From a virus, in IMG/VR virus record IMGVR_UViG_3300010403_000705, positions 124,001 to 188,000 of that record: DNA of 64,000 bases; one strand, 5' to 3'. The translations under genes were made by a program, and so were the position numbers. The notes under the pieces were generated by a model that had not been told where the DNA came from, searched no databases, and saw only the letters and a program-made list of their open reading frames with translations. Shown in pieces: positions 6,425 through 46,357 of this stretch; within the stretch, counting starts at the first letter, position 1; each line of letters starts with the position of its first letter.

Positions 6425-7129
6425 ATGAGAAATAAAAGTGTATCAGATTTTGTCGCTGCCTCTATGGATGCAGTATTAAAGAGTGCGACACACCAATCTA
6501 TGTTTAACAACACATATAAATTTGCATCACAGCAATGTGAAAAATGTCATAAAACTATGGAAGAATGTTCATGTGATAGTAATAGCGCAGATGATAATGA
6601 TGTGAAAAAGAATTCAGATTCATCTAGTGATAGTAGCTCTAGTGATTCTAGCAGTGCTTTTGATGGCATACTAGATACAAATGACGTATCAGATAAAGAA
6701 GAAGATTGCACTGAAGAAATGGAATCATCTGCTCTTGATGTAGCAATAGATAGTTTACTTACAGCGTCCGCTGCTCTCGATCGTGCAGGATTAGAAAGAG
6801 GATCTTCTCTCAGTTTGAAACTAGCATCATTGGTAGTAGAAGCTAAGAAAAAAGAAGATAGCAAAAAGAAAGATTCTAAAAAAAGTAACAGTGATTCTAA
6901 AAAGAAAAGCGATTCTAATGATGCTAGAGCCAAGAAAAAGAAAGAAGAAGATATGAAGAAAAAGAAGGAAGAAGCGGCAAAAGCTAAGAAATTAAAAGAT
7001 TCTAATGACGCTAGAGCCAAGAAAAAGAAAGAAGAAGATTCTAAAAAATCTTCCTCAAGATCATCTTCATCGTCCTCTAGTTCCAGCTCTAGTAAAAGAC
7101 CTAATCCATTTCTAAAAAAAAGTAAATAG
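6425..7129 (+). CDS. Low-complexity Lys/Ser-rich protein with Cys motif and helical-hairpin module
   Basis: Protein of 234 residues, preceded by AAAGGA. Parts in order: an N-terminal helix; a possible metal site with C38, C41, C48 and C50 (CEKCHKTMEECSC); an Asp/Ser-rich linker; a helical hairpin at about residues 105-140 (SALDVAIDSLLTASAALDRAG) that resembles modules in the next two genes; and a highly charged tail of KKKEED, DSNDARAKKKK and poly-Ser ending PNPFLKKSK. A 42-bp unit of the tail is duplicated. The basic tail could bind nucleic acid. It directly follows the protease-scaffold gene. A packaged head-interior protein is a reasonable guess; no family recognised. Confidence 0.75.
   Translation: MRNKSVSDFVAASMDAVLKSATHQSMFNNTYKFASQQCEKCHKTMEECSCDSNSADDNDVKKNSDSSSDSSSSDSSSAFDGILDTNDVSDKEEDCTEEMESSALDVAIDSLLTASAALDRAGLERGSSLSLKLASLVVEAKKKEDSKKKDSKKSNSDSKKKSDSNDARAKKKKEEDMKKKKEEAAKAKKLKDSNDARAKKKKEEDSKKSSSRSSSSSSSSSSSKRPNPFLKKSK
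6911..6952 (+). repeat. 42-bp direct repeat in the Lys-rich tail, copy 1
   Basis: Encodes DSNDARAKKKKEED. It is repeated at 6998-7039 with a single base difference (a synonymous GAT/GAC change), 87 bases apart and in frame. Such repeats in charged tails usually arise by replication slippage. Confidence 0.9.
6998..7039 (+). repeat. 42-bp direct repeat in the Lys-rich tail, copy 2
   Basis: Second copy of the 6911-6952 unit, one synonymous mismatch. Confidence 0.9.
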
Positions 7130-39602: not shown

Positions 39603-42377
39603 ATGGCAAATCAACCTGGAGGAGCTGGTCTATTACCAGGAGTTACATCGGTTACTGACGTAATTAGTCGTGGAGTAGCAATTCCTGGAGGTTCCCGTAT
39701 TGCAGCTATGATTGGTGAAGGTTCAACAGATGAAGTAATCATTTCACAAGCTAATGGCAAAGGCGCAGATGGTTTAAATGTATCTTATTCATCTACTTCA
39801 GGAGCTGATGGCAGGCATTTTCAATTGTCTAATTTTCCATTAATATCTAATAGAACTACATTATTTAAAAATGGTGTTCCACTTGTAGGTCTAGAATCAT
39901 TAATTGATTCTAATCCATTTAATAATAAATATGATTATAGAATTGATATTTCTACTGGAAGAATAGAATTACAGACAGCTCACTTGGTTGATCAGGGCGG
40001 GGCTTTTTATGTCCCATTATCTACTAATATAGGCTTAGGAACTTTGAATACATTAATCTTACAGGATGCAAATGCTCCTCCAGAAACTTGGACTATTAGA
40101 TGTGTATCTGTACAAAGAAATGTTTTGAATCAACCTATCGCTGGGACCGCGAAATTTCTAGCCTTTGGTTCCGTATCTGGTGCCAAACTTGATGCAAATG
40201 GAAACCCAATTGTATGGGCTGCTAACAATCAAGTTATAACAAATGGTATAATAAGTTTTTCTATTCAAGAAACACAAGTAATGTCCGTAGTGGTGTCTTC
40301 TTTTAGAGAAGGAGATGCTTTTACAATAAAAGTAGCTAGTGGAGTTTTAGTAAGAAGTGATTCTTTAACAGCAAATTATATACCATCATTATTTTTGAAT
40401 GATCCTATTTTAACACAAGGTTTAGGTGATGTAGTAAACAGACATGGATTTCCAAGTCTAACTAACAATTTATCACTTGGCGCACAGTTAGCTTATGCTA
40501 ACAATGCTCCTAATTTAATTACTGTTCAAGCTGCTCCCGCCATGCCAAGAAGATTATCTTTTATATTGGAAAATGGCGTTAATTCACTATCTACAAATGA
40601 CGATGATTTTATTTTTCCGTTGCCTTTAGGAATAACTCCAGATTTCAATTCTAATATTCATTTTTTTATTAAGAATAATGCGACTAATGTAGAGACACAG
40701 GTTCTTCCAAATAAATTAGATTATTATTTATTAGATACAGCGGGACACCCAACGACGCATCAATTTATTATTGATAACACGCCCGCACCTGCTGGTTTTT
40801 CATATTTTTACACAGTTAAACAAAGCTTAGCAACTATATCTACTGGAGAAGATGGATACATTGGAAGAGACTTAGCATTTACCACTAAAGGTGTTTTCGG
40901 AGCTCCATCAGTAACATTTGATTCAACATACATTGGAAAAAAATTAAAAATCATTGACTCTTCTAATAAAGCTAATGGCGGAATATATACTGTCAATGCT
41001 GTAAGTGCAGGTCAATTATATGTAACACATGATACATTTACCGATTTTACTAATGAGTCTCCCGTTACTTTTGAAATTATTGATGTATCAACAAACTTGC
41101 CATTAGCTGGAGGATCTGCTACTGATGGCAATCTTATATCTTTGATTGCTACGGCAACTGCCACTCTAAATAGTAGCACTACTACAGGTGTAGATTTTGG
41201 AGCTATTAATAATTTGCTAACTCGTCGATTGCAAATCAATGGTTCTATTATTAACGATGGCTTATACGATATTATTGGCTATGACAATTTGACTAACACT
41301 ATTACTATTCAAAAGACCATAGTAAATGAAAGTAATATGAGATATGAAGTATTAGATGCTGATGATGTAAGTAATTATATTGTAATTAACAGAAATGTTG
41401 TTCCAACTGGATTCGCTTTAAGAGTGACAATAATTGATAATAAAGAAGCTTCGTTTTATGATGCTGGATGGATCAATGCGCTAACATCTCTAGAAACTGT
41501 AGAGTGTGATATTCTTGTTCCTTTGCCAAAACAAACTACTTCCATAATTTTTCAAAATGCACTATCTCACTGTAAAGCAATGAGTAATATTCGTAATAAA
41601 AAAGAAAGAATATTATTTATTGGTGCAATAAATGGTTTGAAACCTGAAAATTTAACGGGAATTAAACCTGCTGCCGTAGAAGATATTGGTATACTAGAAG
41701 GAATTCAGGGAGAAACTATTACTGATATTTTAGCTGGAAACATAGAAGATTTATCAAATTATTCTGTACCAGATGCTTTTGGCAATACATTCAGATGTGT
41801 ATATTTCTATCCAGATCAAATTGTAGTACAAGCAGGTTCTGATAATGTTTTAATAGATGGATTCTATATTGCTGCAGCTGCGGCAGGATATGAATCAGCT
41901 GATGTAAGAATTGAAAATCCACTGACTAACAAAGTCTTAACTGGTTTCACAATTCTTAGAAATAAACAATTCTCTACTTCAATTTTAGAACAACTAGCAG
42001 CAGCTGGAATTACAACATTACAACCAGTAGCTGGTGGTGGCAGAGTTATTTGGGGCTTAACTACTTCACAAAGTGGCTTTATAGAAGAACAAGAAATTTC
42101 TATAGTATTCATAAGAGATAGAGTTGCTAAAACATTAAGAGCAGGATTTATAGGATTTATTGGTCAACCACAAACCAAAGACACGGGCGCAATTCTAAAT
42201 ACACGCGCAGTAATATTATTGAACTCTTTGGTATCTCAAGGTCTTATTACAACTTATAAAGATTTAAGTGTGATACAAGATGATGTAGATCCAACACAAT
42301 GGAATATTTCAGTAAGAGTTCAACCAACATATCCAGTAAACTTTATTTTTATTAAAGTAAATCTTGGTCAACTATAA
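39603..42377 (+). CDS. Tail sheath protein
   Basis: Protein of 924 residues with a very strong AGAGGAGAAA site. The C-terminal 120 residues (ISIVFIRDRVAKTLRAGFIGFIGQPQTKD..., ending FIFIKVNLGQL) are the characteristic C-terminal sheath domain. The N terminus (GLLPGVTSVTDVISRGVAIPGGSRIAAMIGEG) fits the family as well. It forms the contractile outer tube. It is longer than usual sheaths because of inserted beta domains; two of them (about 436-497 and 528-586) are similar to each other and to one in the baseplate J protein. A weak 8-bp hairpin (39478-39509) lies in the 148-base leader. Confidence 0.9.
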   Translation: MANQPGGAGLLPGVTSVTDVISRGVAIPGGSRIAAMIGEGSTDEVIISQANGKGADGLNVSYSSTSGADGRHFQLSNFPLISNRTTLFKNGVPLVGLESLIDSNPFNNKYDYRIDISTGRIELQTAHLVDQGGAFYVPLSTNIGLGTLNTLILQDANAPPETWTIRCVSVQRNVLNQPIAGTAKFLAFGSVSGAKLDANGNPIVWAANNQVITNGIISFSIQETQVMSVVVSSFREGDAFTIKVASGVLVRSDSLTANYIPSLFLNDPILTQGLGDVVNRHGFPSLTNNLSLGAQLAYANNAPNLITVQAAPAMPRRLSFILENGVNSLSTNDDDFIFPLPLGITPDFNSNIHFFIKNNATNVETQVLPNKLDYYLLDTAGHPTTHQFIIDNTPAPAGFSYFYTVKQSLATISTGEDGYIGRDLAFTTKGVFGAPSVTFDSTYIGKKLKIIDSSNKANGGIYTVNAVSAGQLYVTHDTFTDFTNESPVTFEIIDVSTNLPLAGGSATDGNLISLIATATATLNSSTTTGVDFGAINNLLTRRLQINGSIINDGLYDIIGYDNLTNTITIQKTIVNESNMRYEVLDADDVSNYIVINRNVVPTGFALRVTIIDNKEASFYDAGWINALTSLETVECDILVPLPKQTTSIIFQNALSHCKAMSNIRNKKERILFIGAINGLKPENLTGIKPAAVEDIGILEGIQGETITDILAGNIEDLSNYSVPDAFGNTFRCVYFYPDQIVVQAGSDNVLIDGFYIAAAAAGYESADVRIENPLTNKVLTGFTILRNKQFSTSILEQLAAAGITTLQPVAGGGRVIWGLTTSQSGFIEEQEISIVFIRDRVAKTLRAGFIGFIGQPQTKDTGAILNTRAVILLNSLVSQGLITTYKDLSVIQDDVDPTQWNISVRVQPTYPVNFIFIKVNLGQL

Positions 42378-43090: not shown

Positions 43091-43117
43091 GAATAATAGC
43101 TAAAGTAAACTACAATT

Positions 43118-43161
43118 AAAAATATCCTACAATTGATATATTCCAATTGTAGGATATTTTT
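43118..43161 (+). terminator. Terminator after the tail tube gene
   Basis: AAAAATATCCTACAATTG pairs with CAATTGTAGGATATTTTT over 18 bp around an 8-base loop, ending in T residues. It separates the abundant tube and sheath transcripts from the chaperone/tape-measure genes; the next ribosome site (AAGGAG) begins 6 bases later. Confidence 0.85.
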
Positions 43162-43177
43162 ATATAAGGAGTTATAA

Positions 43178-43843
43178 ATGCCTAGTTTTGAGAGCCCTTT
43201 AGGAAATAAAAAATTTGGAACTACTTCACCTTTGAGAGAGTTGGATATTCCAGATGAAACTGAGTTTAACCAAGACAATATAGTAAACCCAATAATGAGA
43301 AGAAAAGCTGCTATGCCAATCTTAGACGATCAGGCTATGCAAAATTTTCAGAATAGATTGCAAGAGAAAGATCCAGCAGAAATAGAAAGAGAATTTAGAG
43401 AGGCAAGAAGAGTCAAAGTCTCTGGTAAAGAAAGATTAAATGAAGGAGCAAAAAGAAGATTAGAAATGCTTCTTAACATGACTCGCACAACACATGAAGT
43501 AAATATTGGTGAAAATATTTTTGTGCTACAAACCATACCTTCAAAATCTATGAGAGAAGCAATTATGGTAGCTTCTGAATATGATGGAACCGTGCAAGCT
43601 CCTTTTGAAGCAAGAAGGCAGTTTCTAGCACGTTCTATAGTACAAATTGCTGGGGTAGAATTTGGTCAGTTCGTCGGCTCAGATTCCTTACAATCTAAAT
43701 TATCTTTCATTGATGAATTAGATGAACCTTTACTAAATACACTATATGGTGAGTATTTAAAAATGTCTGAAATAGCTAAAAATAAATACTCGGTTAAAAA
43801 TAACATAGAGGCAAAGGAGATTGTTGAAGATTTAAAAAAATAA
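43178..43843 (+). CDS. Tail assembly chaperone (G-type, zero-frame product)
   Basis: Protein of 221 residues with TAAGGAG. It lies between tube and tape measure, the standard place for tail assembly chaperones. It is helical and acidic/basic mixed (NRLQEKDPAEIEREFREARRVKVSGKERL) and ends ...EIVEDLKK followed by TAA at 43841. Just before the stop is T TTA AAA, and a hairpin follows, so a fraction of ribosomes should slip to the -1 frame and add the next coding segment. The short form is expected to be the major product and to coat the tape measure during assembly. Confidence 0.85.
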   Translation: MPSFESPLGNKKFGTTSPLRELDIPDETEFNQDNIVNPIMRRKAAMPILDDQAMQNFQNRLQEKDPAEIEREFREARRVKVSGKERLNEGAKRRLEMLLNMTRTTHEVNIGENIFVLQTIPSKSMREAIMVASEYDGTVQAPFEARRQFLARSIVQIAGVEFGQFVGSDSLQSKLSFIDELDEPLLNTLYGEYLKMSEIAKNKYSVKNNIEAKEIVEDLKK

Positions 43844-43870
43844 TATATGAATCGGATCATCGATTCATAT
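43831..43870 (+). promoter_or_regulatory. Programmed -1 ribosomal frameshift site
   Basis: The slippery heptamer T TTA AAA occupies 43831-43837 in the correct phase of the chaperone gene, with a second candidate A AAA AAA at 43834-43840. After a 7-base spacer comes a hairpin: ATATGAATCG (43845-43854) and CGATTCATAT (43861-43870), 10 perfect base pairs around GATCAT. The -1 frame is open from here straight into the downstream coding region with no stop, giving KIIYESDHRFIWFLCKEIYK before the MNMDPVQKMW start. Confidence 0.9.
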
Positions 43871-43920
43871 GGTTTTTATGTAAAGAAATTTACAAAACTA
43901 CTCCTGATGATTTAAGGATA

Positions 43921-44190
43921 ATGAATATGGATCCGGTTCAAAAAATGTGGATGTACGAACATTGGCTTGCTGACCAAAATGAGCAGGCTGAATTATTTAA
44001 AAATCATGCTTATTTATTAGGTTCATTTTGGAATCCAGAAGCAGTGAAACAATTAGTAGGTGAGGGAAATGTACACACTTCAACAGATGAAGAATTCGAA
44101 GAATCCACAAAGATGGTCAAGCAAATAAATGAACAATTAGCTCAAAGTAATCCTCTTAAGTTAAAAAGAAGAAAACGCCGTTCATCATAA
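43921..44190 (+). CDS. Tail assembly chaperone, frameshifted (T-type) segment
   Basis: This 89-codon frame is the -1 extension of the upstream chaperone: the open frame reaches back without a stop to the slippery site at 43837, so the fused product is about 337 residues. Its content (MDPVQKMWMYEHWLADQNEQAELFKNHAYLLGSFWNPEAV) is typical of the C-terminal part of such fusions, which bind tail tube subunits or the tape measure. AAGGATA precedes the ATG, so separate initiation is also possible. The tail is basic (KLKRRKRRSS). Confidence 0.8.
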   Translation: MNMDPVQKMWMYEHWLADQNEQAELFKNHAYLLGSFWNPEAVKQLVGEGNVHTSTDEEFEESTKMVKQINEQLAQSNPLKLKRRKRRSS

Positions 44191-44200
44191 GGAATAATTA

Positions 44201-46357
44201 ATGCCAGATAATGTACCTACAACAACAGAACTAGCAGCCACCGCAGATGCTGCTACCAAAACAGCACAAGCCTTAGATGCATTATCTATATCTTCTGCCC
44301 AATCTGGTGATAGTTTAAATAATTTAGGAGAATTCACTAGTAATACTAAAAACGCTTTTAATGCATTTAATACTACTTTGTCTGCCTATGGTGTATCACT
44401 TAATAATTCCATGGCATTAACAGAAAAACAAACTACTCAATTTGGATTGTTAAGTGCTGCTGTATTAGGAGCTAGAACTTCTTTTAATACTTTACATAAT
44501 ATTGATGTAGGTGGTTTAAATACATTTGTTGATCAGATAGGATATCTAACAGAGACATTTACGGATGCGAAAAGTGGAATTGGTCAATTAGTAAATTTTG
44601 CTCAACAAGCTTTTGGAAGAATGGTCCCACAAACTATAATTTCACAAGGCTTAAGTGCTGTCAAAAATTTTGTGATAAATTTGGCTCAAAGTGCTGATAA
44701 TGCTTTAAGATTACAGAATGCGTATATTCAATTATCTGCTAGAACAGGTAATTTATCAGAAGTATATGCAGCAGCGGGTCCCAATCTTGAAAATTTAAAT
44801 ACGTTATTAGAAAAACAAACTGCACTTGTTGCAAATGCAATAAAAACTACCGGACTAGGACCAGAAGTTGTGCAAAGTTATTATGCACAATTAGGAACAA
44901 TACCTAAAGCATTGGAAGCAACAGTGACTAGTAGTGATAGTGCTTCAGAAACAATTAGTTTACTTACTGCTAGTATTAAAATAGCAAGTGGTACAGGACG
45001 CAATTATGTTGATATCATAGAAGACATGAAAGTTGCATTTAAGGATTATAATTTGACTGGTGAAGAAGCCTTGAAATTTACTTCTCGTATGACTGAAATT
45101 AGTAATAAATTTGGCACTAACCTTGATGTAGTAAGAGATTCTTTAAGAGGCACTGCTGGTGTTTTCAAAATGTTTGGCAATGAAGCTGAAGCATCATCTA
45201 GAATATTGAATAATTATGTTGGAGCATTACAATCAACTGGGTTAAGTGGTGATGCTGCAGTAGAAGTAGTTACTGATATGACACGTGCTATAGGGAATTT
45301 AGGTATAGCCCAAAAGGCATTTCTGTCTGCTCAAACTGGTGGTCCAGGTGGTTTAATGGGAGCATTCCAAATAGAAAAAATGATGCGTGAAGGTAAGATA
45401 GATGAAGTATTTGAAAAAGTAAGAACACAAATGCAAAAGCAATTTGGACAAATAGTTACTCTAGATGATGCCTCATCAAATCCAGCAGCAGCAGCTCAAA
45501 TGACCAAACAAATGATGATTTTAAGACAGGGACCATTAGGGCAATTTGCAAAATCTGATCAAGAAGCTATAAGGATATTAGAAGGTTTTAAAAATAGACA
45601 AGAAAGAAAAACAGTCACTGATCTTTCTAGTAGAATTGTACAAGACAATATGAGTAAAGGTACTCTACTACAAGAAAAATCATATACAGAACTAAGTAGA
45701 ATACGTGGTATTTTAGAAGGAGCGAGAGGTGTGGCTGATATTAGTAATTTAGGGTTTATGCAAAAAAGTTTAACAGCTGGTATGGGTATAGAAGGTCAAT
45801 TATCAGAAGCACAAAGAAAATCTAAGGATAACTTATCTTTATTTATGACTAGTAGTGGTGTTGCTGGCGGCGCTACAGCACAGGATTATGCCAGAGATAT
45901 TAAAACTAGAGCGCCAATTGCAGATGCAGGTAAAAGAGCCGCCTCTTCTATTACAGAATTTTATAAATTATTTGGTGATATTCCAGAAAGTATGAAAGCG
46001 CCTTTGGACGCCTTAACACAAGCAATGGAATCTGGTAAAATCATTAACAAATCTACCGAATTACAGTTAAAAGAAGATGTAGAAAAAATAAAAACAGACT
46101 CCAAAAAATTACCAGGAGATTATGCATCCTCAAGATCTGTAGGTGCTGCAGTAAGTCGAGCTACTAATATATCTAGTTTGCAAAGAATTAATTTAGCTCC
46201 CTCTAATTCTTTTGTGACCCCAAGTAATGGAAATAACTTAGAAAAACTAGGTGATATTAATGTACATGTTACAGGATATTGTATAAAATGTAAACAAGAA
46301 ATTGAGGGCGGACAACAAGCTGCTGCTGTAAATCCAGCAGGCGTAAGAAATTATTAA
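44201..46357 (+). CDS. Tape measure protein
   Basis: Protein of 718 residues, start after AAGGAATAATTA, 10 bases after the chaperone stop. It is nearly all helix, rich in Ala, Thr, Ser and Gln, with long amphipathic segments and a hydrophobic Gly-containing central part (around GGPGGLMGAFQIEKMM). The position directly behind the frameshifted chaperones is diagnostic. It sets tail length; with about 0.15 nm per residue the tail tube would be roughly 110 nm. The C terminus has CIKC, a possible metal pair. No lytic domain is recognised. Confidence 0.8.
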   Translation: MPDNVPTTTELAATADAATKTAQALDALSISSAQSGDSLNNLGEFTSNTKNAFNAFNTTLSAYGVSLNNSMALTEKQTTQFGLLSAAVLGARTSFNTLHNIDVGGLNTFVDQIGYLTETFTDAKSGIGQLVNFAQQAFGRMVPQTIISQGLSAVKNFVINLAQSADNALRLQNAYIQLSARTGNLSEVYAAAGPNLENLNTLLEKQTALVANAIKTTGLGPEVVQSYYAQLGTIPKALEATVTSSDSASETISLLTASIKIASGTGRNYVDIIEDMKVAFKDYNLTGEEALKFTSRMTEISNKFGTNLDVVRDSLRGTAGVFKMFGNEAEASSRILNNYVGALQSTGLSGDAAVEVVTDMTRAIGNLGIAQKAFLSAQTGGPGGLMGAFQIEKMMREGKIDEVFEKVRTQMQKQFGQIVTLDDASSNPAAAAQMTKQMMILRQGPLGQFAKSDQEAIRILEGFKNRQERKTVTDLSSRIVQDNMSKGTLLQEKSYTELSRIRGILEGARGVADISNLGFMQKSLTAGMGIEGQLSEAQRKSKDNLSLFMTSSGVAGGATAQDYARDIKTRAPIADAGKRAASSITEFYKLFGDIPESMKAPLDALTQAMESGKIINKSTELQLKEDVEKIKTDSKKLPGDYASSRSVGAAVSRATNISSLQRINLAPSNSFVTPSNGNNLEKLGDINVHVTGYCIKCKQEIEGGQQAAAVNPAGVRNY

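Follow-up and report, generated by a model that had tools for sequence, protein, structure and literature searches.

That a -1 slip can yield two versions of a tail chaperone has long been known in phages, the basic phenomenon since lambda. In the lambda G/GT system, a -1 shift close to the 3' end of G leads to two products, G and, as the minority, a GT fusion, and the genes lie 5' of the tape-measure gene (PMC5009743). The Escherichia coli dnaX cassette comprises a Shine-Dalgarno (SD)-like element, an A-run heptamer and a downstream RNA stem, and the accepted spacing of SD-like elements for -1 shifts is 9–14 nt upstream of the slip (PMC5009743). In the record of Bacillus phage G, gp182 is annotated as a tail assembly chaperone whose gene is put together from two segments, and the junction reads GAA TTA AAA AAC TAG.

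We analysed a stretch of 64,000 nucleotides (the window; 31% GC) of a virus record of 432,844 bases. A preliminary description had proposed a -1 frameshift that joins two tail assembly chaperone frames, and comparison of 87 sequences strongly supports this. Our reading, which we hold to be very probable, is a programmed -1 ribosomal frameshift at A AAA AAA, assisted by an upstream SD-like element and a downstream helix, that would produce G and a minority of GT tail chaperones (Table 1).

Table 1. Features of the probable frameshift locus, in window coordinates
Feature	Position	Strand	Remarks
ORF G, zero-frame tail assembly chaperone	43178..43843	+	221 aa; homology to Bacillus phage G gp181
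SD-like AAGGAG	43814..43819	+	14 nt before slip site; AGGAGGT in most relatives
T TTA AAA, slip site of the preliminary description	43831..43837	+	zero-frame phase; not conserved
A AAA AAA, conserved slip site	43834..43840	+	in phase in 87/87 sequences, always exactly seven A
-1 frame extension T	43840..44190	+	stop 44188-44190; open, with protein-level conservation starting at the slip
Zero-frame stop of ORF G, TAA	43841..43843	+	directly after A AAA AAA
Local perfect 10-bp hairpin, ATATGAATCG (43845-43854) / CGATTCATAT (43861-43870)	43845..43870	+	special to the window sequence
5' arm of long-range helix, GAAUCGGAUC	43849..43858	+	8 nt after slip; synonymous constraint
3' arm of long-range helix, GAUCCGGUUC	43930..43939	+	CCG in 63/70 prolines, GTT in 66/66 valines
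Third stretch under synonymous constraint	43984..44011	+	may or may not belong to the cassette
Tape-measure gene, presumed client of G/GT	44201..46357	+	weak Pfam matches; position and length fit

Gene layout and homology

As in systems of the lambda type, two overlapping frames, the second in -1, lie immediately 5' of the putative tape-measure gene. This ORF matches PhageMin_Tail and TMP_3 with E about 1e-5, short of the Pfam cut-offs, and ten bases separate its start (44201) from the end of the -1 frame (44190). On the 5' side of ORF G are a tail sheath gene (phrog_2839, E 2e-10) and a gene in tube position. The sheath gene (39603-42377) is unusually long (924 aa), and known sheaths match its C-terminal third only. 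Moreover, the gap between the tube-position gene and ORF G (43116-43163) carries a strong inverted repeat, AATATCCTACAATTG...CAATTGTAGGATATT, followed by T-rich sequence, which looks like a terminator or processing hairpin.

Relatedness to known tail assembly chaperones runs through Bacillus phage G. ORF G aligned with gp181 (hhalign, 96.8%, E 2e-10), and the -1 part with the T part of gp182 (93.6%, E 2e-7). In Foldseek searches the model of ORF G matched gp181 (E 1.6e-6) and named tail assembly chaperones; the best match of the T model was gp182, which is not significant alone. PHROG chaperone families were matched at weak E-values, and nothing significant was obtained from the PDB by sequence or by fold. 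Among known phages, neither a DNA similarity search with the window nor tblastn with the -1 part gave a match. Rfam returned matches far below gathering scores only, and no tRNA genes were found in the window. In analogy to lambda, G and GT would be the two tail assembly chaperones that deliver tube subunits to the product of the next gene, the tape-measure protein, with GT probably loading the tube on the tape measure.

Slip site and open -1 frame

IMG/VR searches with the -1 protein and with G yielded 29, 167 (80 kept) and 118 (80 kept) loci, and after merging, the comparison set consisted of 87 distinct sequences, namely the window and relatives from uncultured phage contigs. Relatives found with G alone are not selected on the slip region. 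For 30 codons past the slip, the -1 frame is open in 87/87 sequences, whereas the zero frame is closed in all 87 and the +1 frame in 86. In the window the -1 frame runs without break from the slip to its stop, as had been noted from the sequence, and the G–T fusion reads ...DLKK-IIYESDHRF... across the junction.

The 3' end of ORF G reads GAA GAT TTA AAA AAA TAA. Two overlapping heptamers had been noticed here, T TTA AAA as the slip site and A AAA AAA as a second one; T TTA AAA was placed correctly, as were the 10-bp hairpin and AAGGA. The comparison exchanges their roles. A AAA AAA, which abuts the stop codon, is invariant, and A7 stands in the same phase in 63/63 distinct loci found with G alone. 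At the position of T TTA AAA the majority of relatives carry C TTA AAA, C CTA AAA or the codon ATA; the joined frames and the A-run persist in 87/87 sequences, but the proposed heptamer does not. All 87 sequences read NTA AAA AAA; the codon 5' of the two lysines is CTA in 44, TTA in 34 and ATA in 9. Its first base and even the encoded amino acid vary, but its last A never does, which fits the requirement of A AAA AAA; T TTA AAA requires more. Hence the conserved in-phase heptamer before the zero-frame stop, a mark of the lambda type, is A AAA AAA and not T TTA AAA. Synonymous constraint is also highest at the slip (z 13.4).

The codon after the run is TAA or TAG in 80 sequences and a sense codon in 7. 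In four relatives (L058, L067, L101 and L102) the zero-frame stop comes one codon later (AAA AAA TCG TAA or TCA TAA), indicating that an immediate stop is not essential. In E. coli, A AAA AAA is reported to be less slippery than A AAA AAG (PMC5009743). This counts against the frameshift reading, as far as E. coli can stand for the host; a search of GTDB genomes for the host gave no match.

Single pieces of this evidence prove little. The 17,445 codons of the window contain 186 in-phase X XXY YYZ heptamers, with T TTA AAA 17 times and A AAA AAA 16 times, and a scan of the 64 kb for perfect 10-bp hairpins gave 26 hits, some of which overlap one another. Heptamers and hairpins are thus not rare at 31% GC, and it is the comparison that decides. 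Of 33 genes scanned, only 2 carry an in-phase slippery heptamer no more than 12 nt away from the stop, ORF G and ORF 6425-7129; the latter, the sole other case, has an in-phase A AAA AAA 9 nt before its stop. The combination of signals is far beyond chance, above all in its conservation: every one of the 87 sequences has A7 in phase and a -1 frame without a stop over 30 codons.

Could T instead be made separately from a start of its own, with no fusion at all? AAGGA at 43914-43918, which had been suggested to give a separately initiated product, suits ATG 43927 (8 nt) better than ATG 43921 (2 nt), and relatives commonly have an ATG at this residue too. However, a -1 start with an SD core occurs in 6/87 sequences only, the window among them, and separate initiation is therefore not the conserved route. 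Moreover, the 30 codons upstream are conserved as protein: mean identity of the -1 protein is 0.60 between the slip and the conserved Met, against 0.63 in the core after it. Protein conservation that begins at the slip point is expected of a lambda-type G/GT gene pair, and separate initiation would leave the invariance of A7 without explanation. We consider it extremely improbable as the sole origin of T, although a separately initiated T could be an extra, window-specific product.

Signals in the RNA around the slip site

Shuffling synonymous codons within each gene gave constraint z-scores along the locus, with three peaks at 43814-43852 (z up to 13.4), 43918-43939 and 43984-44011. The first takes in an SD-like element, AAGGAG in the window and AGGAGGT in most relatives, which the preliminary description had missed. 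Its distance to the slip site is 14 nt in the window and 13 nt for AGGAGG in most relatives, within the 9–14 nt of a dnaX-like stimulator, and it is absent from some relatives. The Glu codon inside it is GAG in 64/72, and the Glu three codons downstream is GAA in 69/70.

The first and second peaks are complementary to each other (GAACCGG with CCGGTTC), and the long-range helix that they form is held by synonymous codon choice. CCG encodes 58/72 prolines at the 5' arm and 63/70 at the 3' arm. Conserved prolines at other places have it in 5/66, 5/62 and 5/72, and the genes of the window use it for 33 of their 700 prolines; the valine codon of the 3' arm does not vary at all. RNAalifold gave the helix a probability of 1.00. 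It is found in 72/87 sequences, with a mean score of 17.8 versus 8.2 in synonymous shuffles, and the lowest-energy fold of 43841-43960 contains it as an 11-bp stem (whole fold -29.3 kcal/mol, z -3.2). Covariation proper is thin, with 2 double changes and 7 further pair types. Like a dnaX-like stimulator, the locus has an RNA stem shortly after the slip, though with few compensatory changes.

A perfect 10-bp hairpin had been proposed as the stimulator. It exists in the window, 7 nt after T TTA AAA and 4 nt after A AAA AAA, and overlaps the 5' arm of the long-range helix. With T TTA AAA as main slip site and this hairpin as stimulator, both elements would be well spaced in the window, and the hairpin alone is stable (-12.0 kcal/mol, z -3.7). 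However, T TTA AAA is missing in most relatives and several of the hairpin pairs are broken in many, and the joined frames are kept nonetheless. We regard this pair as an improbable main signal, which may add to the conserved one in the window phage; the long-range helix is the better-supported candidate stimulator.

The run of A also raises the question of whether RNA polymerase, and not the ribosome, slips and joins the frames. A homopolymer of seven A does stand at the junction in all sequences, but its length never departs from seven (87/87), and slippage of bacterial polymerase has been described on runs of about nine (PMC5009743). In Bacillus phage G the run is interrupted (A AAA AAC), and polymerase slippage gives no role to a conserved SD-like element or a helix at ribosomal spacing. 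Because the run stays at seven, keeps its phase and has ribosomal stimulators alongside it, slippage by polymerase is very improbable.

According to the ribosomal reading, ribosomes on ORF G would reach A AAA AAA with tRNA-Lys in P and A sites. Pairing of the SD-like sequence with 16S rRNA and the RNA helix that starts 8 nt downstream would both favour slippage. Most ribosomes would then stop at TAA and release G, and a minority, a frequency that we infer from analogy with lambda, would slip back one base before the stop, enter the -1 frame and make the G–T fusion.

The long-range helix is missing in 15 of the 87 sequences, and 7 of these 15 are without a clear substitute; like the scarcity of compensatory changes, this counts against the frameshift reading. 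The 5' arm takes part in a strong local hairpin (e.g. GAACCAGAG/CTCTGGTTC) in 7/15 sequences without the helix versus 3/72 with it. Since the hairpin substitutes fall mostly in one clade of the tree, plus L163, they do not count as independent cases, and the evidence is weaker than the Fisher value of 1e-4 suggests. As a speculation that we consider rather unlikely, the 5' arm may act as a hub with alternative partners, about 70 nt away in some sequences, nearby in others and, in the window, either of the two; ribosome traffic could thereby tune the G:GT ratio, and the stretch 43984-44011 could belong to this control as an additional element not described before.

Located about 150 nt after the slip, this third stretch holds its position in most of the 87 sequences and has the consensus GAACTAGCTAAAAATCACGCATATCTATTAG. 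His is CAC in 57/68 and Ala is GCA in 68/74; the window copy is partly decayed (25/31 consensus bases). Three relatives (L031, L032 and L034) keep the long-range helix and have lost the third stretch, so the two elements are separable. Additional copies, as expected of a recurring motif such as a promoter, were not in excess across 480 kb of loci, and no partner for a long-range pairing scored above shuffle level. A second helix that RNAalifold proposed for it (UGGAUGU/AUAUCUA) was set aside, because Leu codons in the 5' arm break it in about 13 relatives while the third stretch stays.

Comparison with known frameshift systems

The family described here is a well-sampled one of uncultured, often very large phages, in which none of the 87 distinct sequences departs from the common slip site. 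As a natural series it is well suited to finding out what signals determine the G:GT ratio; both the switch of helix partners and the third constrained stretch are testable. For annotation, the two genes should be joined; pipelines would split them and lose the first 30 residues of the second.

Bacillus phage G gp181/gp182 resembles the locus in several respects: both parts are homologous to ORF G and T, the zero-frame stop follows directly after an A AAA AAN heptamer, and the genes are 5' of the tape measure and 3' of sheath and structural genes. The two differ in the heptamer (A AAA AAC in Bacillus phage G) and in the T part, which is much longer there (about 255 codons); they share no DNA similarity, and G lacks the N-terminal ~90 residues.

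With E. coli dnaX the locus shares the SD-like element, the A-run heptamer and the downstream stem. Unlike dnaX, an unrelated gene whose shift leads to a shorter product, the shift here would lead to a longer one; the stem closes over about 70 nt, and the heptamer is A AAA AAA in all 87 sequences and not A AAA AAG. Hence the locus would work like dnaX but is not a dnaX cassette. Compared with lambda, this is a huge phage with a contractile tail, and heptamer and proteins differ; the two would work alike, by a -1 shift near the end of G, before the tape measure. Judged by its sequence and the conservation of its parts, the locus is thus best placed in the lambda G/GT kind, as a new case of it.
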